Part shown: piece by piece, positions 498 to 20,951 of the stretch
Numbering within the stretch: the stretch's first letter is position 1
Layout of the letters: each line of letters starts with the position of its first letter
The notes under the pieces: generated by a model
What the model was told of the DNA's origin: nothing
Databases searched by the model: none
The model's input: the letters and a program-made list of their open reading frames with translations, nothing else
IMG/VR virus record: IMGVR_UViG_3300030098_007065
Coordinates: 63,203-85,544 of that record
Source: a virus
Length of the DNA stretch: 22,342 nt
Reading direction: 5' to 3' (one strand)
Translations under genes and position numbers: made by a program

Positions 498-502
498 TTA
501 AA

Positions 503-508
503 TATTTA
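503..508 (-). promoter_or_regulatory. Late-type promoter element TAAATA
   Basis: Minus-strand TAAATA ends 5 nt before the GTG at 497. Its first three bases are the TAA stop codon of the upstream gene. Confidence 0.6.
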
Positions 509-1234
509 ATCACCACTCGATGTATCGAAAAATTCTGCATCAATCTCAAGCTCTGTTTCATCAACAGTTAGAAGGTCATTATTATATTTGCTAACACCTT
601 CAATGAAATTAGATATTCTAGAATAAACACTAAGAGGAAGCTTTTCAACAAGTTTTATACGTTCATGTATTCGAATATCATCTAAGTCAATAACATCTTC
701 CTCAATTTGTATAATATCAATAAATTTAATTATTTCGTAAATATAAAGCGTCCCAACACCTTCTTTAAGAACAGATTGATCTCCATCAATCTCTTGCTCG
801 CATTTATTAAGCAAAATATTTTCTTGCTTTAATGTAGGAATCTTAAGCGTTAATTTTAAAGTACCTTCTTTGATAGTAAAAGTATCTTTTATATTAAACG
901 GAATATTCTTAATATTATTAAGAACGCTTTGCAATTCAATACCACCTACTTTATCACCTAAAGCATTTTTTCTTAATGCAATAATAAAAGGTAGCTTATC
1001 ATATACCTTCAAATCAGATAAGCCTGAGTTTTCAATAATAATTTTATTAAGTGTTCTGTTAAAATCTAAGGCTCCTTTAAGACCATCAAGCACAGAAGAA
1101 ATTAAATCTTTTTGCTGCTTTAAATTTAAAGGCTTTGTTGGTACTTTCTTCTTTAAAGATGGTACAAAAACTTCGATAGTTTCATCTTGAAGCTTATCTA
1201 ACTTATTCAGAAAAGAAGAAACATTTTTACTCAT
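506..1234 (-). CDS. Baseplate-hub assembly-like protein (T4 gp26/gp51-type candidate), copy 2
   Basis: 242 aa, no membrane segment, acidic C-terminus (residues about 225-242). The family guess, a T4-type baseplate protein, rests on size, position after the tail tube genes and general look; it is not a firm motif match. What can be seen directly is relatedness to the preceding gene. Residues 79-96 (DKLPFIIALRKNALGDKV) match EKLLAFFILREKCIGEQV there, and 197-212 (EKLPLSVYSRISNFIE) match SRLPDSIFGHLEAFVD, in the same order and with similar spacing. It is probably a late gene needed to assemble the baseplate hub. The ATG at 1234 is supported by a TAAATA element 5 nt upstream. Confidence 0.6.
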   Translation of the reverse strand: MSKNVSSFLNKLDKLQDETIEVFVPSLKKKVPTKPLNLKQQKDLISSVLDGLKGALDFNRTLNKIIIENSGLSDLKVYDKLPFIIALRKNALGDKVGGIELQSVLNNIKNIPFNIKDTFTIKEGTLKLTLKIPTLKQENILLNKCEQEIDGDQSVLKEGVGTLYIYEIIKFIDIIQIEEDVIDLDDIRIHERIKLVEKLPLSVYSRISNFIEGVSKYNNDLLTVDETELEIDAEFFDTSSGD

Positions 1235-1239
1235 AATGA

Positions 1240-1245
1240 TATTTA
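1240..1245 (-). promoter_or_regulatory. Late-type promoter element TAAATA
   Basis: Minus-strand TAAATA ends 5 nt before the ATG at 1234. Its TAA is also the stop codon of the upstream gene, as at 503-508. Confidence 0.6.
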
Positions 1246-2037
1246 GCTAATCTTTTGGTTTTTCAAGTCTTGGTTTTGCTTTTCAATTTCATCTAAGTAT
1301 AATTTATAATAATCATTAAGCTCTAAAAAAGTACACGATGTAAGATATGATACATCAGGTATTCTTTTACTTAAAGTAAAAATCATTTCTCTATAATCAG
1401 TATCTTGTACGCAATCAAATAGCCTAACAATAAAAGTAGTAAGAGATATATCAAACATATTAATTCTAATAGGATCTATTTTCATATTCTCTTTACCTTC
1501 AAACACTAGAATATCAAAATGAGATCTATTTTTGTCAACAAAAGCCTCGAGATGTCCAAAAATACTATCTGGCAACCGACTAAAGACGTCTTTATATTCC
1601 TTTTCAGATAATAACGATACAACTATTTCCTCATCTTCAATCTTTAATTTTTCTATAAGAGAAAATATAAAATCTGTATCACCCGTATAAAACTTAGTAG
1701 GATAATTTAAAGTACATACTATATTATCAACAACAACTTCTTCTTGTATATCATCAAAAGAACCAATATTATTTTTAAAAAGCTGTAAATCTATATTAAC
1801 GTTACCTTTAGTAGAACCTACGGCAACCTGTTCCCCAATACACTTTTCTCTTAAGATAAAAAAAGCTAATAATTTTTCTACAACTGTTAATCCTTTTGTT
1901 ATAATAAACGACTCCAAAAATTTAATTATATTTGATATAGAAGAATCGCTATATAATGCTAACTTTCTTAGATCTCTATAGAGTATTTCTTTTACTGTAA
2001 CTTCTTTCTTATTAAGAAGGGTAAAGGATAAATCCAT
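1243..2037 (-). CDS. Baseplate-hub assembly-like protein (T4 gp26/gp51-type candidate), copy 1
   Basis: 264 aa, soluble, mixed alpha/beta, with a Lys/Gln-rich C-terminal helix. It aligns by eye with the next gene (506-1234) in two blocks: residues 54-71, containing FFILREKCIGEQV, and 153-169, containing RLPDSIFGHLEAF. The two genes are therefore probably a tandem duplication that has diverged strongly. Its position between tube-like proteins and a probable hub or tape-measure gene fits the T4-type baseplate hub chaperone/subunit family, but this assignment is inference. The start has only a one-mismatch late element (TAATTA, 5 nt before the ATG). Confidence 0.6.
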   Translation of the reverse strand: MDLSFTLLNKKEVTVKEILYRDLRKLALYSDSSISNIIKFLESFIITKGLTVVEKLLAFFILREKCIGEQVAVGSTKGNVNIDLQLFKNNIGSFDDIQEEVVVDNIVCTLNYPTKFYTGDTDFIFSLIEKLKIEDEEIVVSLLSEKEYKDVFSRLPDSIFGHLEAFVDKNRSHFDILVFEGKENMKIDPIRINMFDISLTTFIVRLFDCVQDTDYREMIFTLSKRIPDVSYLTSCTFLELNDYYKLYLDEIEKQNQDLKNQKIS

Positions 2038-2042
2038 ACTAT

Positions 2043-2048
2043 TAATTA
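2043..2048 (-). promoter_or_regulatory. Degenerate late-type element TAATTA
   Basis: One mismatch to TAAATA, at exactly 5 nt from the ATG at 2037. Called because spacing and position match the exact copies. Confidence 0.35.
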
Positions 2049-2062
2049 TTGTGCATTAACAT

Positions 2063-2767: not shown

Positions 2768-2773
2768 TAATAA

Positions 2774-2779
2774 TATTTA
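2774..2779 (-). promoter_or_regulatory. Late-type promoter element TAAATA
   Basis: Minus-strand TAAATA ends 6 nt before the ATG at 2767, in the 37-nt gap between two tail genes. Confidence 0.6.
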
Positions 2780-2804
2780 ATCGGCAATTTAATTAAACAT
2801 GTAA

Positions 2805-3341
2805 TTAACTAAAGTCTCTATAGAAATGGTAAGCAAATGTAGTTGAGAAGTTTAATACAGCACCTTCACCTTCTGCAATAGAGTATTCAATATCACCAAT
2901 CTCTCTAATAGATGCACCAACAAGCTCAATATTTCTCACGTCGTTTAAACTCTTATCAATTTGTACAAGATTTATTCTTGATTCTTCTCCAGGCATTCCA
3001 TATTGCCCTAAAGAAGTTTCGTTGTTAAATACTGCCCTTGAAGCAGCTTCCATTTTAGTTCGAAGCTCACAATTTTCATCATGATAGAATTCAATCGAAT
3101 AACCTTCAGCGTTTGCGTAAGTTGATCTTCCAGGCACCTGAAACTCTTGACCGAAATAATTAACTGTTTGGTTAGTTATATTTCTACCCGGTAAGTTTGC
3201 TGTCCTAGCATAAACTAGGTCGTCCTCTCCGTTAAAACTAATTCCACCGATTAGATCTATTTGCCTAACTCGAAATAGAAAGTCACGGGAAAATTGCTTT
3301 TCTGCAGCTCTAGTAAAGAAGTTTTGAATAGTTGTTGCCAT
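2805..3341 (-). CDS. Tail tube protein (T4 gp19-like)
   Basis: 178 aa, close to the T4 gp19 length (163 aa). It begins with FFTRAAEKQFSRDFLFRVRQI and continues with ARTANLPGRNITN, a contact segment typical of tube subunits (small residues plus LPG). It then has YSIEFYHDENCELRTKMEAA, corresponding to the gp19 region that reads roughly VTVMNDE..DARQKF, and ends in beta strands IELVGASIREIGDIEY...TTFAYHFYRDF. It forms the inner tube of the contractile tail. It is transcribed immediately after the sheath gene, as in T4 (gp18-gp19). The ATG is supported by a TAAATA element 5 nt upstream. Confidence 0.82.
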   Translation of the reverse strand: MATTIQNFFTRAAEKQFSRDFLFRVRQIDLIGGISFNGEDDLVYARTANLPGRNITNQTVNYFGQEFQVPGRSTYANAEGYSIEFYHDENCELRTKMEAASRAVFNNETSLGQYGMPGEESRINLVQIDKSLNDVRNIELVGASIREIGDIEYSIAEGEGAVLNFSTTFAYHFYRDFS

Positions 3342-3346
3342 AATAT

Positions 3347-3352
3347 TATTTA
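3347..3352 (-). promoter_or_regulatory. Late-type promoter element TAAATA
   Basis: Minus-strand TAAATA ends 5 nt before the ATG at 3341, between sheath and tube genes. Confidence 0.6.
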
Positions 3353-3365
3353 ATAGTTTGTTTCA

Positions 3366-6239
3366 TTAACCACCGACTAATTCTTCAAAATTAGCATCTG
3401 TTCTAGTGGCAAAGAAGTTAACTAAGATAAACTCTGCTGTTCTTGTTGGTTTGATGTAAATATCAACTACCAACTCATTAGCATCTATAATTGCTGGTGT
3501 GTTGTTTCTCTCATCACATACAATCAAGTAATCAAACAAGCCTTCGTTATTCTTAGCCCTTTCAAAGATTGGGGTAAGAGTATTAACTATTCTTGTTCTA
3601 GTAAACTCTGTATTTTGTTCAAATACAAAGAATCTAGTAGCTTTCTTAGTAGGTCTTTCTAAGCTTAAGAACAACCTTCTAACATTAATTCTGTCAAATG
3701 CACTCGATTTCTTTGAAAGTGTTTTCTGTCCAAATACTACTAATCCCTGCGATGGGAATTGTGCTACAGGGTTAATGTTTGCTTTATAAAACTCATCCCT
3801 TTGCTTTTGATTAGGATTAACCGCTATGTCATTAGCATTTGTTACAAGCCCTCTTGTGAAGCCAGCTGGTGCAAACCATGGGAAGGTTGCAGCATCTGAT
3901 CTTGCCATTATAGCTCCAGCAAATCCAGAGAACGGAACATATACTTGACGTCCAGAATAGGTATCATATATTAATGCCCAGTTACCATATACTGCCGCGT
4001 AAGATGTATTCTCGTTTTCAAATTGATGTCTTACAGGCCAGTAAATATCTGTCTGGAAGTTCTTATTTTTATCATCAAGTATCTTACCTTCTGTTCCTTG
4101 TACAAAGATTTGACGTAATGGATCAGCAATAAATATACAATCACCTCTACCACCTCCTAAGTAAGGTGGTGAGACAAATTGCTCGAATTTATTAAAGATA
4201 GTCGAGTAATTATTTCTAAGAGTTGCTGCAGCACCTGTAATTTCATTCGATGTTCTTAATCCATTAACAGCTTCAGCAGATGTTGCTGAATACTCATCGT
4301 AATAAGTTAAATTATCAGCACTTGCTATAGTATAGATTGTACCTAAGCCACCTTCAACAACAACATCAATATCGTAGATATCATCGTTTTTAATAGCATC
4401 AAGTGCTCTTTCTAACTTATTAGGAATATCTCCTAATTCTTTACCTTCGACAGTTGCTTCGGTATAAGCACCTAATGGGAATAAACTTTCAGCTTTTCCA
4501 ACAGCAGTTTCTAAGCCTGAATATTGCGATCCATCAATTCCTGTCTTTGCTACACCCTCAGCATCAGTATTAGTAGCTAGCTCAGTAGTTAATAATCTAA
4601 TTCTCTTATTAACATTTCCATTAGCATCTAGAGCGTTTGTACCTCTAAGTCTATTTGATACGTAATCATTAACTTTAACAACAACGTTACGTGATAAATC
4701 ATCTCGAGATTCTACAAAGAATGGAATATCCTGTCCTCCAGCTGGGTTAAGCTGCGTTCTATAATAGTTAATTGATCCAGCTATACCATCTTCTAATACA
4801 TAATCAAGCTTGAATGCTTCATTAGCGTAAATCGATTTACGTAACTTAAATACACCTAAGCTTAAGACATCATCATCAGTTCTTCCATCGATTTCAAAAT
4901 CAGTAAGATTTTCCATCACTTCAGATACTGAATTAGTTGTACCTGTTTCAAAGTTAGCTGATAGTTTAAACACTTGCGTACCTGCTGGTATTGTTGTATA
5001 TGTTGTTGTTGCAGCAGCTGATTGTGTTAGCGTCTTAGTTGTTAATATATTATTAAAGTTAGTACCTGGCGTTGTGTTTGTGTTATCAGCAAGACCAACA
5101 TAAAAACCTTCAAATTGATTATTAATAGTTGACGTTGACTTATTTAAGATAACAGCGCCGGCTCCTCCTGCATCAGCAATAGTACTGAAAGAATCTTTCG
5201 CACCAGCAGTTTTTGACCAAGTATACGCTGTACCTTGTAAAGCACTAAGATATTGTGATTCAGTAAGTTCTAAGTGTGTAGGCTGACCTAATACGTATAC
5301 TGCTGAAGCCGTATCTAAGCTAGTTGAAATTTGCTGATTAGATTCAGCACTAATAGAGAAAGTATCAGTAGCACCGGTAAATGGATTATTAACTGACGGT
5401 GTAATTACACCAACAGTCTTAAGTGCAGAAGCACCAGTAAGACTAATTTTAATAGAAGTACTAGCGAAAGTATTAGGTGCATTTCCTGCACTTGCTGCAA
5501 AGTTAAATGAATCTACTTTAATTGTGTTATTAACACCAGGAGCTGCAGCTTTAGTACCATAACCAGCTGATAAACGAACTACAGAAGACAATACGTGTCT
5601 AATCGATTGAGGTGTATTACCACCAGTTTTACTAGCACTAATTTGAATTACGTTAGTAGTTCCACCACGATTAATTCCTACAGAGGACGTCGTAGGGAAT
5701 TCACTAGCACCGGTATTAGCACCCACAAGAGGGTTGGCAGAACCACTTGGTTTAGCAGTGCCAAATCCAAAGACAACAGAGCTTAGAACTCCACGACCAG
5801 ATTGAATTTGAATCTCTACTCCAGAGAGAGCAGTATGTGAATTAGTAGCATTAAATTTTTGATTAAGATGGAAGGCACTTAACTGACCCAGTTGCGAATC
5901 ACCAGTAACGTTACGTACTGGGTATACTAAAGCTGAATATTTAGATCCAAATCCATCACCAGTACCATGGCCGTATGGCAATCTACTAGCAAATATATTA
6001 GCTGGTGAATTTAACAATTCATTTATAGTATAGTAGAAATATCTTTCAGATGAGTTGGTTGGAGGTCCAAAGACGTTATTTAGTTCTTGTTTAGTTGTAA
6101 TTTTAAGAACTTCATCAAGGGGTCCCTGTTGCGCGAAACCAGTAACATATACGTTAGTTCCAACGTTTAACGGGGCGGTGAGTGAAAGATCTGCTTCTCT
6201 AATTTCTACTCCAGGAGAGTTAATCGTACGCTGTGCCAT
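3366..6239 (-). CDS. Contractile tail sheath protein (T4 gp18-like, enlarged)
   Basis: 957 aa against 659 in T4 gp18. The N-terminus (INSPGVEIREADLS, then VGTNVYVTGFAQQGP and FASRLPYG near residue 100) is the canonical sheath start. The C-terminal 270 or so residues carry the conserved sheath core: YAAVYGNWALIYD, VPFSGFAGAIMARSDA, FPWFAPAGFTRG, NPVAQFPSQGLVVFGQKTL, FDRINVRRLFLSLE and a final ADANELVVDIYIKP-like strand followed by VNFFATRTDANFEELVGG. Between them, roughly residues 110-560 are rich in Ser/Thr/Ala/Gly/Asn and look like inserted surface domains. The product wraps the tail tube and contracts at injection. The ATG has a TAAATA element 5 nt upstream. Confidence 0.93.
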   Translation of the reverse strand: MAQRTINSPGVEIREADLSLTAPLNVGTNVYVTGFAQQGPLDEVLKITTKQELNNVFGPPTNSSERYFYYTINELLNSPANIFASRLPYGHGTGDGFGSKYSALVYPVRNVTGDSQLGQLSAFHLNQKFNATNSHTALSGVEIQIQSGRGVLSSVVFGFGTAKPSGSANPLVGANTGASEFPTTSSVGINRGGTTNVIQISASKTGGNTPQSIRHVLSSVVRLSAGYGTKAAAPGVNNTIKVDSFNFAASAGNAPNTFASTSIKISLTGASALKTVGVITPSVNNPFTGATDTFSISAESNQQISTSLDTASAVYVLGQPTHLELTESQYLSALQGTAYTWSKTAGAKDSFSTIADAGGAGAVILNKSTSTINNQFEGFYVGLADNTNTTPGTNFNNILTTKTLTQSAAATTTYTTIPAGTQVFKLSANFETGTTNSVSEVMENLTDFEIDGRTDDDVLSLGVFKLRKSIYANEAFKLDYVLEDGIAGSINYYRTQLNPAGGQDIPFFVESRDDLSRNVVVKVNDYVSNRLRGTNALDANGNVNKRIRLLTTELATNTDAEGVAKTGIDGSQYSGLETAVGKAESLFPLGAYTEATVEGKELGDIPNKLERALDAIKNDDIYDIDVVVEGGLGTIYTIASADNLTYYDEYSATSAEAVNGLRTSNEITGAAATLRNNYSTIFNKFEQFVSPPYLGGGRGDCIFIADPLRQIFVQGTEGKILDDKNKNFQTDIYWPVRHQFENENTSYAAVYGNWALIYDTYSGRQVYVPFSGFAGAIMARSDAATFPWFAPAGFTRGLVTNANDIAVNPNQKQRDEFYKANINPVAQFPSQGLVVFGQKTLSKKSSAFDRINVRRLFLSLERPTKKATRFFVFEQNTEFTRTRIVNTLTPIFERAKNNEGLFDYLIVCDERNNTPAIIDANELVVDIYIKPTRTAEFILVNFFATRTDANFEELVGG

Positions 6240-6244: not shown

Positions 6245-6250
6245 TATTTA
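6245..6250 (-). promoter_or_regulatory. Late-type promoter element TAAATA
   Basis: Minus-strand ATAAATA ends 5 nt before the ATG at 6239 of the sheath gene. Confidence 0.65.
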
Positions 6251-6271: not shown

Positions 6272-6859
6272 TCAAAAATCCATAACTTCCGTATGTAATT
6301 GCGAGTATACAAACGTAAATCCAGAAGTAATTTCATCTGCTGTTTGGTAGTTGTAATTTATTTGATCAATGGTAGTTGGAAATGCTTTAGTATAGGTAAA
6401 TTTTATCCTATTGTTATTAAACTCGTCTTTACCAAAAATAGATAAATTAGTTTGATAGTCTTTAAAATTTTCATCTGGATCGTTTGCATTTATTTCCCGT
6501 GCATTATATGTACCAGTATACTGATCATGTAATAAATTTAACCATTGATATATTACCCAGTAATTTTTGTATTCATTATCTACATTAAAGTTAACACTTA
6601 CGGGGGGATAAGGATTTTTACTATGTGAAGTAACATATAACGTGCTTCCAGAATATCTATTTTCTACAGCTGGTACAGTTATTTCAGGTACTGCAGAACC
6701 AAAAATAGAAAATTGAACAGAATCGCTTATAATTGATGTGTTATCTTGATTAAATTTTTTATTAAATTCTCTCAAGATGGGAGGTATATCAAACACAAGC
6801 AAAAACTTATCAGCTCTTGACTTGTTGAGAATTGATTGCTGCATGGAATTGTATGCCAT
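6272..6859 (-). CDS. Tail tube-like protein between terminase and sheath (gp19 superfamily)
   Basis: 195 aa, beta-rich, no membrane segment. It shows FLLVFDIPPILREF near the N-terminus, then SIFGSAVPEITVPAVENRY, the tube-type segment in which a strand is followed by P-x-I-x-V-P and an aromatic/Gly turn. PPVSVNFNVDNEYKNYWVIYQWLN matches the gp19 central region. The C-terminal strand pair ends with SGFTFVYSQLHTEVMDF. It lies where T4 has gp17 directly followed by gp18, so it is an extra gene in this order. It could be a tube-completion, tube-initiation or neck-tube protein. The gp19-fold call is moderately sure and the exact role is not known. Confidence 0.6.
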   Translation of the reverse strand: MAYNSMQQSILNKSRADKFLLVFDIPPILREFNKKFNQDNTSIISDSVQFSIFGSAVPEITVPAVENRYSGSTLYVTSHSKNPYPPVSVNFNVDNEYKNYWVIYQWLNLLHDQYTGTYNAREINANDPDENFKDYQTNLSIFGKDEFNNNRIKFTYTKAFPTTIDQINYNYQTADEITSGFTFVYSQLHTEVMDF

Positions 6860-6865: not shown

Positions 6866-6871
6866 TATTTA
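6866..6871 (-). promoter_or_regulatory. Late-type promoter element TAAATA
   Basis: Minus-strand ATAAATA ends 6 nt before the ATG at 6859 and directly abuts the terminase stop codon. Confidence 0.6.
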
Positions 6872-8610: not shown

Positions 8611-8616
8611 TATTTA
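8611..8616 (-). promoter_or_regulatory. Late-type promoter element TAAATA, leftward half of a divergent pair
   Basis: Minus-strand TAAATA ends 5 nt before the GTG at 8605 (terminase). It is mirrored by a plus-strand copy at 8627-8632, with 10 nt between the two. Confidence 0.65.
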
Positions 8617-8626: not shown

Positions 8627-8632
8627 TAAATA
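8627..8632 (+). promoter_or_regulatory. Late-type promoter element TAAATA, rightward half of a divergent pair
   Basis: Plus-strand ATAAATA ends 5 nt before the ATG at 8638. With 8611-8616 it forms an inverted repeat around a GCTAGC palindrome. Confidence 0.65.
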
Positions 8633-9698: not shown

Positions 9699-9733
9699 AA
9701 AAAGCCCGTTGAGTACCCCTCTTCGGGCTTTTT
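9699..9733 (+). terminator. Rho-independent terminator hairpin, potentially bidirectional
   Basis: A 10-bp stem (AAAAAGCCCG at 9699-9708 with CGGGCTTTTT at 9724-9733) is topped by a TT/TT internal loop and a further GAG/CTC stem (9711-9713 with 9719-9721). A T run follows to 9734. The A run before the stem gives a U tract on the other strand, so it could work both ways. It lies 26 nt after the stop of the EF-hand gene. Confidence 0.88.
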
Positions 9734-9736
9734 TAA

Positions 9737-9742
9737 TAAATA
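9737..9742 (+). promoter_or_regulatory. Late-type promoter element TAAATA
   Basis: AATAAATA starts right after the terminator T run and ends 5 nt before the GTG at 9748. Terminator and promoter together insulate the next gene. Confidence 0.65.
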
Positions 9743-9747
9743 TAATT

Positions 9748-12538: not shown

Positions 12539-14944
12539 TTATGGTCCAACAGAGATCTTTAAGTCAGTTCCGGAACGCCAGACAACACCCGCAACTTTTG
12601 GATCACTTGTTGGTATACCACAACCAGAGCAATCAGCACTAAGAAAGAGTCTATTAGTATGAAGCATATGACCAGAAACTGCAACAATATCAGAACCTAA
12701 TATTGAAGAATGACAAAAACATGCTCGGCTCGCTCCGGATCCACCACCTGGTCGTGGAGATGATGCGGTACCAACGCCACCAATAGTATTACAAAGCCCA
12801 CCGCCAATAAAACTAAAATTAGTACATATGCAACTTCGCTGACCACCAGCTATAGATGAAAAGCATCCACAGGAGTTTAACTGATTTGCATCTCCACCAA
12901 TAACAACGCTATTTTTTGCACATGTGGTGTGATTACTACCACCACCTATTATACTCAGACAGCCTCCTTTTAAAATAGCATTACAAAAACCACCAACGAG
13001 TGCAGCTTGATCTGTCGTAGTACAGTTAGCAGTACCTCCACCTATAAATGCACAATTTCCTGCTGCAGATAAAGACTGACCACCTACAACTGTAGAGTAA
13101 CAATTACGCGCTACGTTATTGCAACCTCCTACAATGTTTGAAAAACATCCATGAGCTCTATTATTCCTACCACCAACAACTACACTAGTTGATCCACATG
13201 CAGAGTTATTAGTACCGCCGCCTGCAAAAGCACTTGTTCCAACTACATTCGAAAAACCACCAACTACCACTCCATTTTTAGCGTCACCAGTAGTAGTATT
13301 TTTACTACCACCTACAATCACTGCTTGCCTACCACATGTAACAACATTTTCTTCCCCTCCGCCTATAAAGCTTGCTCGAGCACCACCTCCTGTTGCAGGT
13401 ACATTATTTTTATTACCACCAACAATTGTTGAAAAAAGATCTGCTGCTGAAAGAGCAAAACCACCACCGATAAATACACACGACGCTGTAATGTGATTAT
13501 GTTTACCACCTGCAACAGTTCCAGCATCACCTGTAACTTTATTGCCGTCACCACCCCCTATACTGCCATTAGTGCTTGTCACAGTATTAAAGCCACCTCC
13601 TACAATAATGCTACACGTTCCAGAGGAGCTATTACCCTCACCACCACCTACAAAAGATTTACCACCGCATGCACAGTTTCTTAAACCACCAACAACTGTA
13701 TCATAACAACAAGTACTAGCCCCAATATTGCATTCCCCTCCTCCAACGAATCCAATATTCGCAGCTCTATTATTACTTCCTCCTGCAACAGTAGAAAAGC
13801 ATCCGCAATCAGAAGCAATATTACTACAACCTCCACCAATAGTAGAATGGCGCCCACAAATGGAATTTGATTGCCCACCAGTAATAACGCTCTTAGCTCC
13901 ATTAACATTATTACCAACACCACCGCCGATAAAACCGAGTGTAGATCCTACCGAATTAGTATGTCCTCCAACTACAGCACTACCTTCAGAGCCAGCTGTA
14001 TTACACTGACCCCCTCCAATGAATGAACTTAAGCCAGTCGCACTACTCTTCATACCTCCAACAACAACTGAACCACAGTTACCTGAAGCTGTATTGCATT
14101 CACCACCACCAATAAATGAACTTAAACCTGATGCAGTATTTGCACCTCCACTGACAACAGCTGCATATTGTTGACTAGCGCAGTTATCAAAACCACCACC
14201 AACAAAAGCATAATCTGATCTTGCGCATGAACTAAGACCACCTACAGCTGTAGAAAAGTCCGCGTTTGCTTGATTATTCTTACCCCCACCTACAAAAGCT
14301 TGGTTGCCATTAGCTATATTATAAAAACCACCCGCTACAACATCTTGAGAGCCACTAGAACTATTCTTAAACCCTCCTCCTACTGTAGAACAAACACCAC
14401 TAGCGCAATTTAGCCTACCGCCTAAAATACTCGCACTGGCGCCAGACGCATCATTAGCTTGACCACCACCGACAGTTGCACAGCCACCAGACCCGGCCTT
14501 GTTACTAAATCCACCACCTACAGTCGAGCATGCACCACATGCAAAGTTTGATCGACCTCCTCCAATATTAGTATTAGCTTGAGTAGCTGAGTTCTGTTGA
14601 CCGCCGACAACAGAACAACCACCTGTTGCGCTGTTACCAGTTCCACCAACAACAGAGGCTAGAGTACCACTACTTACAATACTCTCACCAATAAACAATC
14701 TTCCTGTAGCACTTAAGTCTCCTACTGTTGATTGAGTTTTTTGAAAGAAATTATTACCCAGTGGAGAGGCTATAGGTCTATCGATTGGCTGACCTGCTGC
14801 TGTTTGGTAAGTTGCACCTGAAAGATAATTTGTAATTGAGCTCAGAGAAGCGCGTCGAGTTTGTGCGTCGTCGACTAATGCTACCTCTTCGGTTCCGGTA
14901 TATGGTATAACGCCTTCATTGAGCTCAGTAATCTTTTTACCCAT
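12539..14944 (-). CDS. Giant cysteine-rich beta-roll fibre protein (YadA-head-like repeats)
   Basis: 801 aa. The N-terminus (KITELNEG...PYTGTEEVALVDD...TRRASLSSITNYLSG, residues 4-43) is the typical virion-attachment start of phage fibres. Residues about 96-759 consist of roughly 42 repeats of 14-17 residues with the pattern S/A-x-V/I-x-GG-x-x-N-x-A-x-G. This is the pattern of left-handed beta-roll heads such as YadA. The last 42 residues (PKVAGVVWRSGTDLKISVGP at the end) form a capping or tip domain. About 40 cysteines sit at the turn positions, which is unusual. It probably trimerises and binds the host surface. It starts at an ATG 5 nt after TAAATA and is followed by a glycosyltransferase gene. 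Confidence 0.8.
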   Translation of the reverse strand: MGKKITELNEGVIPYTGTEEVALVDDAQTRRASLSSITNYLSGATYQTAAGQPIDRPIASPLGNNFFQKTQSTVGDLSATGRLFIGESIVSSGTLASVVGGTGNSATGGCSVVGGQQNSATQANTNIGGGRSNFACGACSTVGGGFSNKAGSGGCATVGGGQANDASGASASILGGRLNCASGVCSTVGGGFKNSSSGSQDVVAGGFYNIANGNQAFVGGGKNNQANADFSTAVGGLSSCARSDYAFVGGGFDNCASQQYAAVVSGGANTASGLSSFIGGGECNTASGNCGSVVVGGMKSSATGLSSFIGGGQCNTAGSEGSAVVGGHTNSVGSTLGFIGGGVGNNVNGAKSVITGGQSNSICGRHSTIGGGCSNIASDCGCFSTVAGGSNNRAANIGFVGGGECNIGASTCCYDTVVGGLRNCACGGKSFVGGGEGNSSSGTCSIIVGGGFNTVTSTNGSIGGGDGNKVTGDAGTVAGGKHNHITASCVFIGGGFALSAADLFSTIVGGNKNNVPATGGGARASFIGGGEENVVTCGRQAVIVGGSKNTTTGDAKNGVVVGGFSNVVGTSAFAGGGTNNSACGSTSVVVGGRNNRAHGCFSNIVGGCNNVARNCYSTVVGGQSLSAAGNCAFIGGGTANCTTTDQAALVGGFCNAILKGGCLSIIGGGSNHTTCAKNSVVIGGDANQLNSCGCFSSIAGGQRSCICTNFSFIGGGLCNTIGGVGTASSPRPGGGSGASRACFCHSSILGSDIVAVSGHMLHTNRLFLSADCSGCGIPTSDPKVAGVVWRSGTDLKISVGP
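12668..14659 (-). repeat. About 42 degenerate in-frame repeats of 42-51 bp encoding a beta-roll
   Basis: Each unit encodes 14-17 residues centred on GG followed by a turn with Asn, Ala, Gly and often Cys. Units starting S-F-I/V-GGG tend to alternate with units starting S-V-V/I-x-GG, giving a higher-order period of about 30 residues from about unit 11 onward. No two units are identical at DNA level, so this is an old array and not a fresh expansion. Confidence 0.8.
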
Positions 14945-14949: not shown

Positions 14950-14955
14950 TATTTA
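14950..14955 (-). promoter_or_regulatory. Late-type promoter element TAAATA
   Basis: Minus-strand TAAATAAATA ends 5 nt before the ATG at 14944 of the fibre gene. Confidence 0.65.
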
Positions 14956-14956
14956 T

Positions 14957-15196
14957 TTACTTCGGCGCTTTTAGCCTGCAACAAATAGCAATAACTATTG
15001 CAAAAATTCCAGAGAATAGTAAATGTTTCTTAAATCCATCAACCGTTGTGCAAAGGCTATTGAAGTCTGTAGCTTTATTTCCACTGACTTGAATAGCCTC
15101 TAACGAAAGCTTTAATTCTTCCGCGCAAGTATAGCCTCTTATAACAAAAGTTAAGATTATAGCAGATAGAATATATACTAGATACCTTGGTTTCAT
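14957..15196 (-). CDS. Small two-helix membrane protein, possible lysis-cassette member
   Basis: 79 aa with two hydrophobic segments, residues about 5-19 (YLVYILSAIILTFVI) and 59-73 (LLFSGIFAIVIAICC), separated by a polar loop with two Cys. The start overlaps the stop of the upstream gene as ATGA, so translation is coupled. The pairing with a holin-like protein suggests an antiholin, a second holin or a spanin-like factor, but no family is recognised. Confidence 0.6.
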   Translation of the reverse strand: MKPRYLVYILSAIILTFVIRGYTCAEELKLSLEAIQVSGNKATDFNSLCTTVDGFKKHLLFSGIFAIVIAICCRLKAPK

Positions 15197-15510
15197 TTTT
15201 TAAGAATTTTTTCGGGACTATCAGCGAATTTTTTACCAAGTTTAACAATACCTGCTATTACTTCTGGGGAGATAACACCAATAATACCGTAGGTAACAGC
15301 TTTATAAAGAGACGAGATTTCTGTTTGCTCTAGTATAAACCATGCTATACCTGCTGAAAGACCAGCAGTAAATATCTTTTTAAGTTGTTGTCCCCAAGTA
15401 TAATTATTTTCTCCAGATAGTAGACGAGCAAGCATCGCGCCAGCACCGATCAAAGGTACGACCCAGCCTCCTTGGAGGAACTCTTTTAGCAGGGATTTTT
15501 CAGGTTCCAT
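15193..15510 (-). CDS. Putative holin (small multi-span membrane protein)
   Basis: 105 aa with three likely membrane segments: about 15-31 (GWVVPLIGAGAMLARLL), 47-60 (FTAGLSAGIAWFIL) and 71-90 (AVTYGIIGVISPEVIAGIVK). A Lys-rich C-terminal tail ends in KKILKK. Size, number of spans and charged tail fit holins of the LydA or lambda-S type, which open the inner membrane at lysis. No endolysin gene lies next to it in this window, so the role is inferred from shape alone. It is followed by the overlapping 79-aa membrane gene. It has the full T4 consensus TATAAATA upstream. Confidence 0.55.
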   Translation of the reverse strand: MEPEKSLLKEFLQGGWVVPLIGAGAMLARLLSGENNYTWGQQLKKIFTAGLSAGIAWFILEQTEISSLYKAVTYGIIGVISPEVIAGIVKLGKKFADSPEKILKK

Positions 15511-15516: not shown

Positions 15517-15524
15517 TATTTATA
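15517..15524 (-). promoter_or_regulatory. Full T4-type late promoter TATAAATA
   Basis: The minus strand reads TATAAATA, ending 6 nt before the ATG at 15510. It is the best match to the T4 late consensus in the window. Confidence 0.72.
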
Positions 15525-15598: not shown

Positions 15599-16324
15599 GT
15601 GAAGATAAAGTTTGATGAAGCGTCTCATACTTATACGCATAAAGATACAAAAGAAAAGTTTATTTCAGTAACTACTCTACTTGGCAAATACAAACAACCT
15701 TTTGATAGAGAAGGTCATTCTAAAAGAGTAGCTGATAGAGAAGGAGTATCGCAGGAGCTTGTTTTAGAAATGTGGGAAAAGGAAAAGGTACGAGCTTGCA
15801 ACCGCGGTACAGATATTCATAAGATCTTAGAAGATTATATTAGCTTTGGTGATGTTAAAGATAACTATGGGTGGTTATGTAAATCATATGATAAAGCTGC
15901 TGAGCGATCTATAGATTCATTTAAAAATGTATTATGTGAGAATCTTTTATATGATGAGGAATATAAGGTGGCTGGTACAGCTGATCTTATCTATGAACAT
16001 AAAAATGAGTTTACTATAGGTGACTTTAAAACTAATAAACGATTCAGATTTAGTTCTCCATTTAGCGAAAGATTAAAGGATCCAGTAAGTCATTTACATA
16101 ACTGCGAGTTTAATTTATATGGATTGCAGCTATCTATGTATGCTTATCTCTACGAGAGAATGACTAGTAAGAGATGTAGAAAATGTGTTATCTATTATTT
16201 GAAAGATGATAGATTTTTGTCTTATCATGTAAACTATATGAAAGCAGAAGTAGAAGCTATCTTAGCTAGTATGCAACAGAGCGGAGCAGAAGTCCCAGTT
16301 AACAATATCGAAAAAATTGCTTAA
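15599..16324 (+). CDS. PD-(D/E)XK nuclease (RecB/Cas4-like)
   Basis: 241 aa. The motifs appear in the order of RecB-family nucleases: NRGTDIHKILED with H74, AGTADL with D129, IGDFKTNK with D142 and K144 as the D-x-K catalytic strand, and YGLQLSMYAYL with the Q-x-x-x-Y helix (Q177, Y181). It probably acts as an exonuclease or flap nuclease in phage recombination or repair, or degrades host DNA. The GTG start follows its promoter by 8 nt; no ATG precedes it in frame. The last 63 bp overlap the 3' end of the convergent superoxide dismutase gene. Confidence 0.87.
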   Translation: MKIKFDEASHTYTHKDTKEKFISVTTLLGKYKQPFDREGHSKRVADREGVSQELVLEMWEKEKVRACNRGTDIHKILEDYISFGDVKDNYGWLCKSYDKAAERSIDSFKNVLCENLLYDEEYKVAGTADLIYEHKNEFTIGDFKTNKRFRFSSPFSERLKDPVSHLHNCEFNLYGLQLSMYAYLYERMTSKRCRKCVIYYLKDDRFLSYHVNYMKAEVEAILASMQQSGAEVPVNNIEKIA

Positions 16325-16888
16325 CCATTCTTTTCTTTTAGGACCATACATTAGATAATAACTATGCTCCCATACATCAACACCGAGAATAGGCTTACCT
16401 AAATTAAACATTAAAGGATTATCTTGATTAGGTGTTCTTACTAAATCTAATTTATCATTTTTCTCTACCAACCATCCCCAGCCAGAACCAAACTGCCCAG
16501 CTGCATTATCAATAAATTCTTTTTTAAACTTTGAAAAAGTACCAAATCGTTTTAGTATTCTATCTTTTATTTCTCCATTAAAGTCACTACCCCCAGGCTT
16601 CATCATATTAAAAAACAGCTGATGGTTATAAGCTCCACCGGCATTATCTTTTATATGATCATTATATTTTGATATCTCTTTAACTAATTCAACTAAGGCT
16701 GGCTTTCTCTTACTACTCATAGCAGTATTAAGCTTTTTAACATACCCCTTATAATGATCATTATAATGAAAATCGGTAGTTTGTCTATTAACTATGGGTT
16801 CTAAAGCATTTAAAGAATAAGGCAAGACTATAGGTTTATATGTACTTACTTCTTCTAAAAGCAAATCTACTTGATTTAAGAACTTCAT
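16262..16888 (-). CDS. Superoxide dismutase, Mn-type of the Fe/Mn family
   Basis: 208 aa, about the usual length with a 15-residue N-terminal extension; no signal peptide. It converts superoxide to oxygen and hydrogen peroxide. All four metal ligands are present: H41 (DFHYNDHYKGYV), H89 (GGAYNHQLFF), D171 and H175 (VDVWEHSYY). Gateway residues H45 and Y49 are present too. The pair GG at 84-85 and Q155 (TPNQDNPLM) matches Mn enzymes, where Fe enzymes usually have Gln at the first site. VNWDF near the end is the family C-terminus. It lies inside the region overlapping the nuclease gene, so the 63-bp overlap is real. A late element 6 nt before the ATG predicts expression with the virion genes. 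It is a rare cargo gene for a phage. Confidence 0.95.
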   Translation of the reverse strand: MKFLNQVDLLLEEVSTYKPIVLPYSLNALEPIVNRQTTDFHYNDHYKGYVKKLNTAMSSKRKPALVELVKEISKYNDHIKDNAGGAYNHQLFFNMMKPGGSDFNGEIKDRILKRFGTFSKFKKEFIDNAAGQFGSGWGWLVEKNDKLDLVRTPNQDNPLMFNLGKPILGVDVWEHSYYLMYGPKRKEWLSNFFDIVNWDFCSALLHTS

Positions 16889-16894
16889 TGATTA

Positions 16895-16900
16895 TATTTA
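16895..16900 (-). promoter_or_regulatory. Late-type promoter element TAAATA, leftward half of a divergent pair
   Basis: Minus-strand ATAAATA ends 6 nt before the ATG at 16888 (superoxide dismutase). The plus-strand partner lies 5 nt away at 16906-16911. Confidence 0.65.
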
Positions 16901-16905
16901 TTAAA

Positions 16906-16911
16906 TAAATA
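16906..16911 (+). promoter_or_regulatory. Late-type promoter element TAAATA, rightward half of a divergent pair
   Basis: Plus-strand AAATAAATA ends 5 nt before the ATG at 16917. It forms a near-palindrome, TATTTATTAAATAAATA, with the leftward copy. Confidence 0.65.
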
Positions 16912-16916
16912 GCGAT

Positions 16917-17120
16917 ATGAAACGAAATTCTTTACTCAAAAAGTTTGATAAGCAAACAGCAGACTTATGGGAACAGCTTTACAAGATGAAAGACCTTTTA
17001 GAAAGTTCAGATGATTTTGAACTTTCAGACTTAGGAAATCGATTTTTAGATCAAATAGCTGAAATTATTGAAGAAGGTGATATTAAACTTGAAGATATAA
17101 GAGATCAAATAATAGGTTGA
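16917..17120 (+). CDS. Small hypothetical acidic helical protein
   Basis: 67 aa (MKRNSLLKKFDKQTADLW...). After a basic N-terminus of about 12 residues the rest is Asp/Glu/Leu-rich and looks all-helical. It has no Cys and no membrane segment. The late element 5 nt upstream supports both the start and real expression. The guaC promoter overlaps its last codon and stop. I do not recognise it. Confidence 0.65.
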   Translation: MKRNSLLKKFDKQTADLWEQLYKMKDLLESSDDFELSDLGNRFLDQIAEIIEEGDIKLEDIRDQIIG

Positions 17121-17143
17121 AAATATTTAATATGCACTATAAT
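17117..17143 (+). promoter_or_regulatory. Sigma70-like promoter with 15-bp spacer for the guaC operon
   Basis: TTGAAA (17117-17122), 15 bp, TATAAT (17138-17143), then TAGATAG and the guaC ATG at 17153. It has the same layout as at 15564-15590. Only 9 nt separate TATAAT from the ATG. Confidence 0.52.
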
Positions 17144-17152
17144 TAGATAGGC

Positions 17153-18205
17153 ATGAGAATAGAAACTGAACTTAAGTACGATTTTGATGACGTACTTATC
17201 CGTCCTAAGCGATCGACTTTAAAATCAAGAAAAGAAGTTGATTTGCATAGATCATATAAGTTTAAACATGGCGGAACGTATTTTGGCATTCCTATTATGG
17301 CTGCTAATATGGATGGGGTAGGAACTTTAGATGTTTCAAAAGAGATAGGAGATTTAGGATTATTTACTTGCTTAAGAAAATCTTTAAGTGAAAAATTTCT
17401 CATTAAGGAATTAAAAGCTACCGAAGGTAATAATCTTGCAGTTACTGTAGGTAGAAATAAGGATGACCTACAAAAGCTCAAGAGAATAGTTAAAGAGCTT
17501 TCACCTTGTTATAAATTAAAATATATATGCGTTGATGTAGCAAATGGTTATAGTCAGAGTTTTGTTGATTTTATTAAAGAAGTAAGAGATGAAATACCTT
17601 ATGCCAATATTATAGCAGGTAATGTGGTTACTGGAGAGATGGTTGAAGAGCTTTTACTAGCCGGTGCTGATATTATTAAAGTTGGTATTGGATCTGGAAG
17701 TGTATGTACAACGCGAATTAAAACTGGAGTAGGTTATCCTCAATTTAGTAGTATTGCTGAATGCGCTGATGCTGCTCATGGTCTTAACGGTCATATAGTA
17801 GCTGATGGGGGTTGTACTTCTCCTGGTGATGTAGCAAAAGCTTTTGGTGCTGGAGCTGATTTTGTTATGCTCGGTTCAATGTTAGCCGGCTGTAAAGAAG
17901 GAGGTGGTAAAATAGTTAAAATTGACGGTAAAGAATATGTAGAGTTCTATGGAATGAGTAGTAAAGTCGCTAATGAAAAACATAATGGCGGTCTTAAAGA
18001 TTATAGGACTTCAGAAGGTAGAAGAGTTCTACTACCCTATAGAGGAGAAATTAAGAACGTAGTACAAGATATTCTAGGAGGTTTAAGAAGTACATGTACT
18101 TACGTTGGAGCTAATCAACTTAGACATCTTAGCAAATGCGCAACGTTTATAAGATGTACAAATACTCATAGTAAAATATATGAAGCTAATACTTTAGAAA
18201 TATAA
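17153..18205 (+). CDS. guaC: GMP reductase
   Basis: 350 aa against 347 in E. coli GuaC, collinear over the full length and without the CBS domains of IMP dehydrogenase. It reduces GMP to IMP with NADPH and releases ammonia, moving guanine nucleotides back towards the adenine branch. It starts MRIETELKYDFDDVLIRPKR, then has IPIMAANMDGVGT, AGNVVTGEM, the active loop GIGSGSVCTTR with catalytic C185 and T187, VADGGCTSPGDVAKAFGAGADFVMLG and FYGMSS. DILGGLRSTCTYVGA near the C-terminus is the GuaC form. It is the first gene of a four-gene operon; its stop overlaps the next start as TAATG. The promoter class suggests expression before the late genes. Confidence 0.95.
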   Translation: MRIETELKYDFDDVLIRPKRSTLKSRKEVDLHRSYKFKHGGTYFGIPIMAANMDGVGTLDVSKEIGDLGLFTCLRKSLSEKFLIKELKATEGNNLAVTVGRNKDDLQKLKRIVKELSPCYKLKYICVDVANGYSQSFVDFIKEVRDEIPYANIIAGNVVTGEMVEELLLAGADIIKVGIGSGSVCTTRIKTGVGYPQFSSIAECADAAHGLNGHIVADGGCTSPGDVAKAFGAGADFVMLGSMLAGCKEGGGKIVKIDGKEYVEFYGMSSKVANEKHNGGLKDYRTSEGRRVLLPYRGEIKNVVQDILGGLRSTCTYVGANQLRHLSKCATFIRCTNTHSKIYEANTLEI

Positions 18206-19059
18206 TGAAAAAGATACTTATACTCGGATATGGATACGTTGGGGGATACCTCTACAGCAAATTAAAAAAAGATAATGATGTAGAAATTGTAAGAAGAGAA
18301 TTTTTAGACTATACTAACGCTAACGATCTAATAAAATATCTTTGTAGTTCTAAATTTGATTATGTTATTAATGCTTTTGGTTTTACTGGTAGACCGAATG
18401 TTGATCAAGGTGAACTAGAGCCTGAATTATGTTATGAGTTAAATACTTTTGCTCCTTTAAGAGTTAGTACTATATGTCAGTGCTTAGGTATAAATTATAT
18501 TCATATTTCTTCAGGGTGTATTTATACAGGATACGACAAGCCTTATGAAGAAGATGATATTCCTAATTTTGGTTTTCATGATGAAGAATCTTCTACCTAT
18601 TCTAAAAGCAAACACGCGTATGAGCTAGGATGTGATTATGGTCTAATTTTTAGAGTAAGAATGCCATTTTGCGATAAGCTTCATGAAAGATCATATCTAA
18701 CTAAAATTAAAAAATATGATAACTTAATCAATTTAACTAACTCTAAAACTTATATACCTTCACTAACTCAATTTGTAAGTGAGTTTATTGCTTCAGGGCA
18801 GGAAGCAAAAGAAAAAGATATAATTAATTTTGTTCAACCTGAACCACTCCGTACAGATGATATTGTATCGCTAATGAAAACTTATAATCTTGGTAACAGT
18901 AACTGGGAATGGGTACAGTTTGAAGAATTAAATTGTAGAGCAAATAGATCTAATTGCGTATTAGATACTTCAAAGATAGGATCAAAGTATGGATTTTATC
19001 CAATAAAGGAAGAGGTTGCTATTCGCGGTGCATTGAATAAGATAATAAAGGATGAATAA
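18205..19059 (+). CDS. NDP-4-keto-6-deoxyglucose 3,5-epimerase/4-reductase-like SDR (UER1/RmlD type)
   Basis: 284 aa, extended short-chain dehydrogenase. The NAD(P)-binding start is LILGYGYVGG (G8, G10, G13) and the catalytic pair is Y132-x-x-x-K136 (TYSKSKHAYE). Several phrases recall the bifunctional plant UER1/RHM C-terminal enzyme, also known in giant viruses, more than bacterial RmlD: VINAFGFTGRPNVD (54-67), SSGCIYTGYDKPYEEDDIPNF, and FRVRMPFCDKL...LTKIKKYDNLINLTNS. That enzyme turns the 4-keto-6-deoxy product of the dehydratase into an L-rhamnose nucleotide without a separate RmlC. The matching 4,6-dehydratase is two genes downstream. RmlD-only reductase activity remains possible. It overlaps guaC by 1 nt and the next gene by 8 nt. 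Confidence 0.83.
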   Translation: MKKILILGYGYVGGYLYSKLKKDNDVEIVRREFLDYTNANDLIKYLCSSKFDYVINAFGFTGRPNVDQGELEPELCYELNTFAPLRVSTICQCLGINYIHISSGCIYTGYDKPYEEDDIPNFGFHDEESSTYSKSKHAYELGCDYGLIFRVRMPFCDKLHERSYLTKIKKYDNLINLTNSKTYIPSLTQFVSEFIASGQEAKEKDIINFVQPEPLRTDDIVSLMKTYNLGNSNWEWVQFEELNCRANRSNCVLDTSKIGSKYGFYPIKEEVAIRGALNKIIKDE

Positions 19060-19492
19060 AGAAATAGTAGGTTTTACTGCAGGCAATTTTGATTTATTAC
19101 ACCCTGGGTATATTAGATGCTTTAGGGAAGCTAAAAGACATTGTGATAGATTTATTGTTTTTTTGCAGAAAGATCCTTCTCTTCATAGAAAGAGTAAATA
19201 TAAACCTGTTATATCTTTATACAATAGATATGAAGCGTTAATGGCTATTAGATATATTGATGATGTATATACGTATCAAACAGAAGAAGAGCTTTATAGC
19301 TTGATTAAGTTTTGGAAACCGGATATTCGTATCTTAGGAGAAGATTATATTGAAAAAGAATCATTTACTGGTGATGATTTACCTCCTAAAGTAATATATA
19401 CGACACGTTCTCATGGGTGGTCTACTACGCGACTAAAAGATCTTATTACAAAGCAGACAATAAAGCAGAATCCTGACGTTTTAAAGAAATGA
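19052..19492 (+). CDS. Cytidylyltransferase-like nucleotidyltransferase (TagD/HldE-C type)
   Basis: 146 aa, a single domain of the HxGH superfamily. FTAGNFDLLHPGYI (8-21) is the nucleotide-binding start, but the second His of HxGH is Tyr (H17-P-G-Y20). NRYEALMAIRYIDDV (58-72) fits the TagD helix with R59. ILGEDY (94-99) matches the usual GDDW/GDDY. HGWSTTRLKDLI (121-132) is the C-terminal ISTTxI signature. Relatives activate glycerol-3-phosphate or a sugar phosphate with CTP or ATP. Placed between two deoxysugar genes, it probably activates a sugar or polyol for the same glycan. It overlaps both neighbours (8 nt before, ATGA after), so the operon is translationally coupled. Confidence 0.85.
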   Translation: MNKEIVGFTAGNFDLLHPGYIRCFREAKRHCDRFIVFLQKDPSLHRKSKYKPVISLYNRYEALMAIRYIDDVYTYQTEEELYSLIKFWKPDIRILGEDYIEKESFTGDDLPPKVIYTTRSHGWSTTRLKDLITKQTIKQNPDVLKK

Positions 19493-20457
19493 ATACATAT
19501 GTTGTAACTGGAGGTTGTGGTTTTATTGGATCATATGTAATCAAAGAGCTTCTCAAAAAAGAAGATATTTTTATATACAATATCGATAAGATGGGTATCG
19601 GCTCATCTAAAGAAAATATTGTAGAAGATGATCGCGTCGAAAATCATTTTATGGATATTGCTAATGATGATGCTTGGAGGCTACATATGTCGCATCCTTT
19701 AGATTTTATATCTGAAGATATCAATTATGTTATTCATTTAGCTGCTGAGTCGCATGTTGATCGTTCTATTGATAACCCTTTATCGTTTGTTGATTCAAAT
19801 TTAAAAGGTACAGCTAATATATTAGAGTTAGTAAGAAAACATAGATCTAGAATGGTTCATGTATCAACTGATGAAGTGTATGGTCATTTAGGAAAGGACG
19901 ACCCTCCATTTACAGAAGAGAGTTCTCTTGCTCCAAGATCACCATACTCAGCAACTAAGGCCGGTTCAGATTTATTAGTACAGTCTTATATTGAAACGTT
20001 TAATATTAATGCTTCAATTACTAGATGTTGTAATAATTACGGACCGCGGCAAGATGATGAAAAATTAATTCCTACAGTAATTAGATCTATTATTAAAGGA
20101 AATAAAATACCAGTTTACGGTACAGGAGAAAATATACGTGAATGGATTAACGCTGAAGATCATGCTAAATCTATTCTAGAAGTTTTACATACTGATAGCT
20201 GTCAAGTACATAACTTACCAGGCAATTTAGTATGCAATAATTTAGAGCTAATTAATAAAATTATTAAAGAAGTAGAGCATCAATTTCCAAACTATAAAAG
20301 AAAGAAAGATGAATATATTGAATTTGTACCTGATAGAAAAGGACACGACTTCAAATATCAGCTAGCTACTAAACATAAATTGGATGCTATAAAAAAGCAA
20401 AAGAAATTTAGTTTATCATCAACTGTAAAATATTACGTTGAAAAATATCGATCTTAG
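19489..20457 (+). CDS. NDP-glucose 4,6-dehydratase (RmlB-like)
   Basis: 322 aa. It removes water from dTDP- or UDP-glucose to give the 4-keto-6-deoxy sugar, the entry step to rhamnose and other deoxysugars. Motifs in order: TGGCGFIGS (7-15), HLAAESHVDRSID (83-95), STDEVYGHL (126-134) with catalytic D128-E129, SPYSATKAGSD with Y153 and K157, NNYGPRQ...KLIPT, GENIREWI and DRKGHDFKY. These are all features of the RmlB family. The natural base (dTDP or UDP) cannot be told from the sequence. It is the last gene of the guaC operon; the start overlaps the preceding stop as ATGA. Only 6 nt separate its stop from that of the convergent next gene. Confidence 0.93.
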   Translation: MNTYVVTGGCGFIGSYVIKELLKKEDIFIYNIDKMGIGSSKENIVEDDRVENHFMDIANDDAWRLHMSHPLDFISEDINYVIHLAAESHVDRSIDNPLSFVDSNLKGTANILELVRKHRSRMVHVSTDEVYGHLGKDDPPFTEESSLAPRSPYSATKAGSDLLVQSYIETFNINASITRCCNNYGPRQDDEKLIPTVIRSIIKGNKIPVYGTGENIREWINAEDHAKSILEVLHTDSCQVHNLPGNLVCNNLELINKIIKEVEHQFPNYKRKKDEYIEFVPDRKGHDFKYQLATKHKLDAIKKQKKFSLSSTVKYYVEKYRS

Positions 20458-20463
20458 AGATTA

Positions 20464-20940
20464 TTAATCAACATTAAAAAATTTTAAAAGCATCTCCTCT
20501 TCAGTCATTTCTGTTTCTACTATAGTTTCATTTTCTGTTTCTTCTGTATCGCTATAATATTTGTAGATATCCTCTTCTTCCATACTATAGTCGAAGTTAG
20601 TTGACGTTGTTACGGTAGTATCAAACTTTGTTTTAATATCACCGATAATGGTATGCTTGAGTTGCTTTACAGGGTTATCTTTTTCCGCTCTCTTTAGAAA
20701 ATCTGTTACATCGTCTTTTGTAAACTTTCCTTTTAGAGCTTTAAAAGGGTCTGAATATGAACTCCAGATGTGATGAACAAGATACTTTTGCGTAATCATT
20801 GCGCAGTCTCTAATAACATAATAGGCTGATTTATTCTGGATCTCAACACCAATATCCGGCTTCTTATGAGCACGTTGCGCGGGACCCAAAAGCTTAGCTT
20901 GTTTTTCTGAGCTATTTTCTAATATAATCTGTTCGAACAC
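20464..20940 (-). CDS. Hypothetical late protein with acidic C-terminus
   Basis: 158 aa, GTG start at 20940 supported by ATAAATA 5 nt upstream. Residues 1-105 are mixed and basic, with SAYYVIRDCAMITQKYLVHHIW as the most folded-looking part. Residues 115-155 are rich in Glu, Thr and Asp (EETENETIVETEMTEEEM), like a flexible acidic tail. No known family is seen. A late element and convergent position separate its control from the upstream sugar operon. Confidence 0.7.
   Translation of the reverse strand: MFEQIILENSSEKQAKLLGPAQRAHKKPDIGVEIQNKSAYYVIRDCAMITQKYLVHHIWSSYSDPFKALKGKFTKDDVTDFLKRAEKDNPVKQLKHTIIGDIKTKFDTTVTTSTNFDYSMEEEDIYKYYSDTEETENETIVETEMTEEEMLLKFFNVD
20899..20928 (+). promoter_or_regulatory. 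Possible sigma70-like promoter for the 20959-21629 genes
   Basis: TTGTTT (20899-20904), 18 bp, TATAAT (20923-20928), inside the start of the opposing gene. It is weak and lacks the TAGATAG tail of the two better promoters. It is offered because the downstream gene has no late element. Confidence 0.25.
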
Positions 20941-20945
20941 ATAAT

Positions 20946-20951
20946 TATTTA
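20946..20951 (-). promoter_or_regulatory. Late-type promoter element TAAATA
   Basis: Minus-strand ATAAATA ends 5 nt before the GTG at 20940, in the 18-nt gap between divergent genes. Confidence 0.62.

Follow-up and report, generated by a model that had tools for sequence, protein, structure and literature searches.

A viral DNA stretch of 22,342 nucleotides (nt), comprising positions 63203-85544 of the IMG/VR virus record IMGVR_UViG_3300030098_007065 (85,544 bases, 33% GC) and referred to here as the window, carries the hexamer TAAATA at a fixed, very short distance before the start codons of many of its genes. In our judgement it is very probable that this hexamer is the -10 box of late promoters read by a homologue of the phage T4 late sigma factor gp55, with transcription starting at the sixth base after the box, so that the mRNAs would be leaderless or would carry leaders of just 1 or 3 nt. 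Such a promoter, placed on the start codon itself, would be a new form of T4 late transcription.

An earlier, sequence-only reading had reported exact TAAATA boxes before 14 genes of the window. All are present where it placed them, with a spacing between box and start codon of 5 nt in ten genes (starts 497, 1234, 3341, 6239, 8605, 8638, 9748, 14944, 16917 and 20940) and of 6 nt in four (starts 2767, 6859, 15510 and 16888). The total number of TAAATA hexamers in the window is ordinary (44, against 52.9 expected), and it is their position that stands out. The core lies upstream of structural genes without a conserved -35 element, as a box of the TATAAATA type. The boxes, together with one terminator and one promoter region of a different type, are located as follows.

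503-508, minus strand: late -10 box TAAATA, spacing 5, gene 3-497 with GTG start, both kept in 16/16 orthologs; the TAA of the box doubles as the stop codon of the upstream gene.
1240-1245, minus strand: late box, spacing 5, gene 506-1234 (baseplate hub-like); 66/66 orthologs.
2038-2060, minus strand: TATAAT-type -10 region, not TAAATA, 7 nt before the ATG at 2037; degenerate here (AATAAT), TATAAT in most orthologs.
2774-2779, minus strand: late box, spacing 6, gene 2063-2767 (tail tube paralog); spacing 6 in 70/76 orthologs and 5 in 5/76.
3347-3352, minus strand: late box, spacing 5, gene 2805-3341 (tail tube gp19); 76/76 orthologs.
6245-6250, minus strand: late box, spacing 5, gene 3366-6239 (tail sheath gp18); 51/51 orthologs.
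6866-6871, minus strand: late box, spacing 6, gene 6272-6859 (tail tube paralog); among 45 orthologs, spacing 6 in 26 and 5 in 17.
8611-8616, minus strand: late box, spacing 5, gene 6872-8605 (terminase large subunit gp17, GTG start); 27/27 orthologs, all GTG.
8627-8632, plus strand: late box at spacing 5 before gene 8638-9672, facing away from the adjacent gp17 promoter; 26/26 orthologs.
9703-9734, plus strand: intrinsic terminator made of a hairpin and a U-tract, whose end lies 13 nt upstream of the 9748 GTG.
9737-9742, plus strand: late box, spacing 5, gene 9748-10782 (GTG start), immediately preceded by the terminator; 20/20 orthologs.
14950-14955, minus strand: late box, the second of two overlapping TAAATA, spacing 5, gene 12539-14944 (repeat protein of 801 amino acids).
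15517-15522, minus strand: late box within a full TATAAATA, spacing 6, gene 15193-15510.
16895-16900, minus strand: late box, spacing 6, gene 16262-16888 (Fe/Mn superoxide dismutase).
16906-16911, plus strand: late box, spacing 5, gene 16917-17120, divergent with 16888.
20946-20951, minus strand: late box, spacing 5, gene 20464-20940 (GTG start).

Could this arrangement be a by-product of AT-rich intergenic DNA and of TAA stop codons that adjoin start codons? The 33% GC content of the genome, and the upstream stop codon that lies inside the box in some genes, speak for such an origin, but the counts over the whole record leave it a negligible probability. Distances from TAAATA to the start codon were measured for 83 genes, called across the record by a simple coding-potential method, and fall at 4 nt in one gene, 5 in 15, 6 in eight, 8 in four, 9 in two and 10 in one, with almost none between 11 and 60. 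A box at 4-6 nt thus precedes 24 of the 83 genes, against 0.86 expected when the upstream regions are simulated by a first-order model, of which 2000 runs gave at most 6. At this spacing TAAATA ranks first among all 4096 hexamers, and internal ATG codons are preceded by it in only 4 of 1511 cases. These whole-record counts are conservative, because the gene caller missed the starts at 6859, 15510, 16917 and 20940 that the sequence-only reading had listed. The genome-wide distance plot, which the sequence-only reading had named as a check that might refute it, shows the predicted peak at 5-6 nt both in the record and in its relatives, in which control hexamers of the same composition (ATAAAT being excluded as it overlaps the motif) give no comparable peak. 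The box is invariant over 160 related contigs despite their differing flanks. Chance or AT-richness as the cause is ruled out by the simulation, the hexamer ranking, the internal-ATG control and the orthologs.

The relatives are 160 IMG/VR contigs, made up of 80 of the 132 stretches found with a tail tube protein query and 80 of the 573 found with a gp55 query. Any TAAATA followed by a start codon opening at least 100 codons was counted there, once per unique context, so that no choice of gene start enters the result. Spacings of 5, 6 and 8 account for 299, 65 and 60 contexts, against a background of 8.4 per spacing; spacing 4 gives 4 contexts, and nothing closer than 5 nt rises above background. 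This one-sided edge would follow from a fixed start at base 6, by which any closer start codon would be cut off. Spacing 7, with 9 contexts, is as rare as background between the peaks at 5, 6 and 8, a distribution that would correspond to leaders of 0, 1 and 3 nt, not 2 nt. Seven ortholog sets keep a spacing of exactly 5, from 16/16 for the gene starting at 497 up to 76/76 for gp19. In the alignments the column information is at or near 2 bits across TAAATA and the flanks are variable. The first two bases of the octamer are relaxed in most genes and weakly kept. The behaviour is the same in every subgroup, down to a gp55 identity of 73%. In a gp17 tree the clade lies on its own long, fully supported branch, apart from T4, phiM9, the cyanophages and the pelagiphages, although with branches of this length its exact position is unsure.

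Where, then, would transcription begin? The first base of the T4 late octamer is numbered -13 (PMC2988020), which means that the octamer ends at -6 and that +1 is the sixth base after the box. The sequence-only reading had assumed a T4-style start about 6 nt past the box, and its assumption agrees both with this numbering and with a pyrimidine-purine step found at bases 5 and 6. In spacing-5 genes, base 5 is a pyrimidine in 95% and base 6 is the A or G of the start codon. In spacing-8 genes the start codon lies three bases further on, yet the step stays in place, with a pyrimidine at base 5 in 93% and a purine at base 6 in 95%; when these genes are collapsed to families, 14 of 16 have the pyrimidine and 14 of 16 the purine (p = 6e-4 for the purine). 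The boxes that lie 15-42 nt upstream in T4 and in the cyanophages Syn9 and S-PM2 have a purine at base 6 in 85%.

A step measured from the box would not be expected of an element that acts in translation. This bears on the proposal that TAAATA is an RNA-level ribosome-binding or standby element, replacing the Shine-Dalgarno (SD) sequence in transcripts that start elsewhere and carry leaders. A distance of 5-6 nt is indeed the usual SD spacing too, and SD sequences are absent here, but such an element gives no reason for the pyrimidine-purine step to stay fixed to the box when the start codon moves by 3 nt, nor does it predict the sharp cut-off below 5 nt, the gap at 7 or the boxes directly after a terminator. 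The hexamer, moreover, lies about 23-28 nt upstream in T4, Syn9 and S-PM2; in the Pelagibacter phage HTVC008M close boxes exclude an SD sequence and distant ones include it; and of the 17 genes that overlap their upstream neighbour, none has a box. We give this proposal a very small chance. The overlapping genes themselves probably depend on translational coupling.

At several of these genes there is no room for a leader. The sequence-only reading saw no evident SD sequence, an impression borne out by the counts: SD core 4-mers occur upstream of 4 of the 83 genes, against 6.5 expected, and the relatives show little or no AGGAG peak. The terminator at 9703-9734 has a folding energy of -14.5 kcal/mol (z = -4.9), its stem is kept in the relatives through paired changes, and its distance of 13 nt to the GTG is the same in all checked orthologs. 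Divergent start codons stand 32 nt apart at 8605/8638 and at record positions 29481/29514, 28 nt apart at 16888/16917 and only 17 nt apart at record 19867/19885. With intervals of 17-32 nt, both promoters of each pair must abut their start codons.

These same arrangements bear on a second alternative, in which the gp55 promoters are real but the start is shifted or scattered, or stable mRNAs arrive from upstream promoters, so that most translated mRNAs are leadered or polycistronic. Many boxes do lie in gaps of 1-40 nt within same-strand runs of genes, as this alternative would have it. For at least the starts at 8638, 8605, 9748, 16888 and 16917, however, the divergent pairs and the terminator exclude upstream transcripts, barring read-through, and neither SD nor any other leader motif is enriched for downstream cistrons. 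We regard it as unlikely. The leaderless late mRNAs suggested by the sequence-only reading are well supported, at the level of sequence, by several independent lines: the gp55 homologue, the T4 numbering, the step at bases 5 and 6, the terminator, the short divergent gaps and the absence of SD sequences, with the amendment that leaders of 1 nt (spacing 6) and 3 nt (spacing 8) would also occur.

A gp55 homologue, which the same reading had asked for, is encoded at record positions 7792-8229. It matches the late sigma family phrog_234 (E 9.9e-26) and Pfam Sigma70_r2 (8e-5) and is 35-39% identical to the gp55 proteins of HTVC008M, Syn9 and S-PM2. The clamp loader gp44 is also present (phrog_168, E 1.5e-80), gp43 and gp44 being clear in the record labelled G000.

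Several observations weigh against our interpretation. Four records (G000-G003) were searched for the sliding clamp gp45 with PF09116, PF02916 and S-PM2 gp45, in each case without a match, and gp33 had no family match among the small proteins next to gp32. Since gp45 was not found and gp33 not recognised, the T4 route of activation is unconfirmed. Both proteins may be divergent or, in the case of this record, lie outside the fragment; if it is not divergent, the sliding clamp might be borrowed from the host. A purine occupies base 6 in just 68% of spacing-6 genes. Many boxes stand inside tight same-strand runs, where longer transcripts must also cover the gene, and operon-internal genes are probably read from these as well. 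The translation of leaderless GUG depends on the host, and searches of genome contigs with the superoxide dismutase and gp55 gave no host. Finally, the gene starts are our own calls rather than annotation, and the related contigs are not mutually independent.

What the sequence shows is the box with its rigid and conserved position, the pyrimidine-purine step, the lack of SD sequences, the geometry of the terminator and of the divergent gaps, and a gp55 homologue; that gp55 binds the box, that transcription begins at base 6 and that the mRNAs are translated without a leader is inferred from these. The mechanism would run as follows. Host RNA polymerase carrying the phage gp55 sigma would read TAAATA as a -10 box and would begin transcription on a purine, the sixth base after the box. 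Where the spacing is 5, +1 would coincide with the first base of the ATG or GTG, giving a leaderless mRNA; at spacing 6 or 8 a leader of 1 or 3 nt would result. Ribosomes would initiate at the 5'-terminal start codon without an SD sequence. Early and middle genes would follow the same plan with their own sigma70-type TATAAT 6-7 nt upstream, and operon-internal genes would also be reached by longer transcripts, probably via translational coupling.

How do these promoters compare with known late promoters? The system resembles that of T4 in its TAAATA core, the lack of a -35 requirement, its gp55 homologue and gp44 clamp loader, the purine at base 6, and late structural genes on both strands. 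T4 late mRNAs are the textbook case of SD leaders. From annotated starts, which were used for T4, Syn9, S-PM2 and HTVC008M alike, the T4 boxes lie mostly 20-28 nt upstream with an SD sequence in the leader, whereas here the distance is 5, 6 or 8 nt and no SD sequence is found. The first two bases of the octamer TATAAATA are relaxed in most genes here, and gp45 and gp33 are not detected. The cyanophages Syn9 and S-PM2, which like HTVC008M are cultured Kyanoviridae, have leadered late genes with boxes about 20-40 nt upstream. The cultured HTVC008M shares the box at exactly 5 nt in 11 annotated genes, but differs in also keeping leadered, SD-bearing late genes with a box 16-38 nt upstream. Its SD core precedes 2 of 16 close-box genes and 10 of 11 distant-box genes (p = 8e-5); in phage Mosig, where cases are few, the corresponding figures are 0/3 and 7/11. 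Downstream of the HTVC008M capsid gene, at 75499-75559, a strong terminator runs into TAAATA-N5-ATG, the layout seen at window positions 9703-9750. Occurrences of TAAATA-N5-ATG against those of the reversed pattern number 18/2 in this record, 40/2 and 30/5 in two large relatives, 14/4 in HTVC008M, 10/5 in T4, 3/3 in Syn9 and 5/3 in S-PM2.

A -10 signal that precedes the start codon by about 10 bp is an established criterion for inferring leaderless genes (PMC3160421). The 'TA-led' genes of mycobacteria, other Actinobacteria and Deinococcus-Thermus resemble the present ones in having a -10 box about 10 bp upstream and ATG or GTG at +1 (PMC3160421, PMC4633059). In those bacteria host sigma factors are at work, in contrast to what is here chiefly a phage late sigma, and in this lineage the arrangement extends to essentially every gene with a recognisable late promoter. 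Among open-licence papers we found no report of leaderless late genes in T4-like phages, and earlier reports elsewhere are possible.

Is the arrangement confined to late genes? A sigma70 -10 box canonically lies 6-7 nt before the transcription start. In the relatives TATAAT peaks at precisely 6-7 nt before start codons, with 52 and 74 contexts against a background of 8. At spacing 7, a -35 element with at most one mismatch is present in 39 of 67 contexts, that of the gp55 gene among them; this class is dominated by a few gene families and is the weaker evidence. The gene starting at 2037, to which the sequence-only reading assigned a one-mismatch TAAATA, is better placed here: 72 of its 73 orthologs lack TAAATA and most have TATAAT-N7-ATG, which rules out a degenerate TAAATA. 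A TTGACA before the 2037 orthologs is not counted as a -35 element, as it lies just 13 nt from TATAAT; better sigma70 pairs precede the gp55 gene. Judged from these motifs, early and middle promoters of sigma70 type seem to be leaderless too, beyond the late programme.

The start codons themselves show a further difference between spacings. The share of GTG among ATG and GTG starts is 22% at spacing 5 and 5% at 6 and 8 (p = 6e-6, with non-independent contexts). Spacing-5 starts comprise 221 ATG, 64 GTG and 14 TTG, against a background of 8.4 for all three codons together. Leaderless mRNAs of mycobacteria accept ATG or GTG at +1, whereas TTG and CTG do not function there (PMC4633059). This fit of start codons suggests a host with efficient leaderless initiation.

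Some features of the neighbouring genes merit description. Three tail-tube paralogs (2063-2767, 2805-3341 and 6272-6859, minus strand), all phrog_45, have the sheath gene between them, and there are two baseplate hub-like paralogs, 506-1234 and 1243-2037, both phrog_150. The protein encoded at 12539-14944 (minus strand; 801 amino acids) has GGG-containing repeats and many cysteines and looks like a trimeric fibre or adhesin head; it has no Pfam match. The Fe/Mn superoxide dismutase gene at 16262-16888 (minus strand), identified by Pfam, sits under a late promoter, and a pattern search with it gave no close bacterial relative. On the plus strand, 17153-20457 encodes an IMP dehydrogenase/GMP reductase-like protein followed by RmlD-like, cytidylyltransferase-like and dehydratase sugar-nucleotide genes, a possible glycosylation cassette. 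Elsewhere in the record are a QueC-like gene (17814-18503) and a glutamine amidotransferase-like gene (20400-21029), which perhaps serve modified bases or nucleotides.

We conclude that in this large, uncultured group of marine T4-like viruses, represented by hundreds of IMG/VR contigs, the T4-type late promoter has very probably moved onto the start codon. A broader claim seems to us somewhat more likely than not: that the whole T4-like lineage runs both its early and middle (sigma70-type) and its late (gp55) programmes leaderless, with promoter and start codon forming one 14-nt unit genome-wide, that its host must translate mRNAs beginning with AUG or GUG no less well than SD-led ones, and that the HTVC008M-like Pelagibacter phages represent a half-way state. 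If the interpretation is true, the starts of transcription and translation would be coupled in one short element, which would also serve as a precise predictor of gene starts. The genome would be compact, with terminator, promoter and start codon within about 45 nt, and the possible hosts would narrow to those with good initiation at leaderless AUG and GUG.

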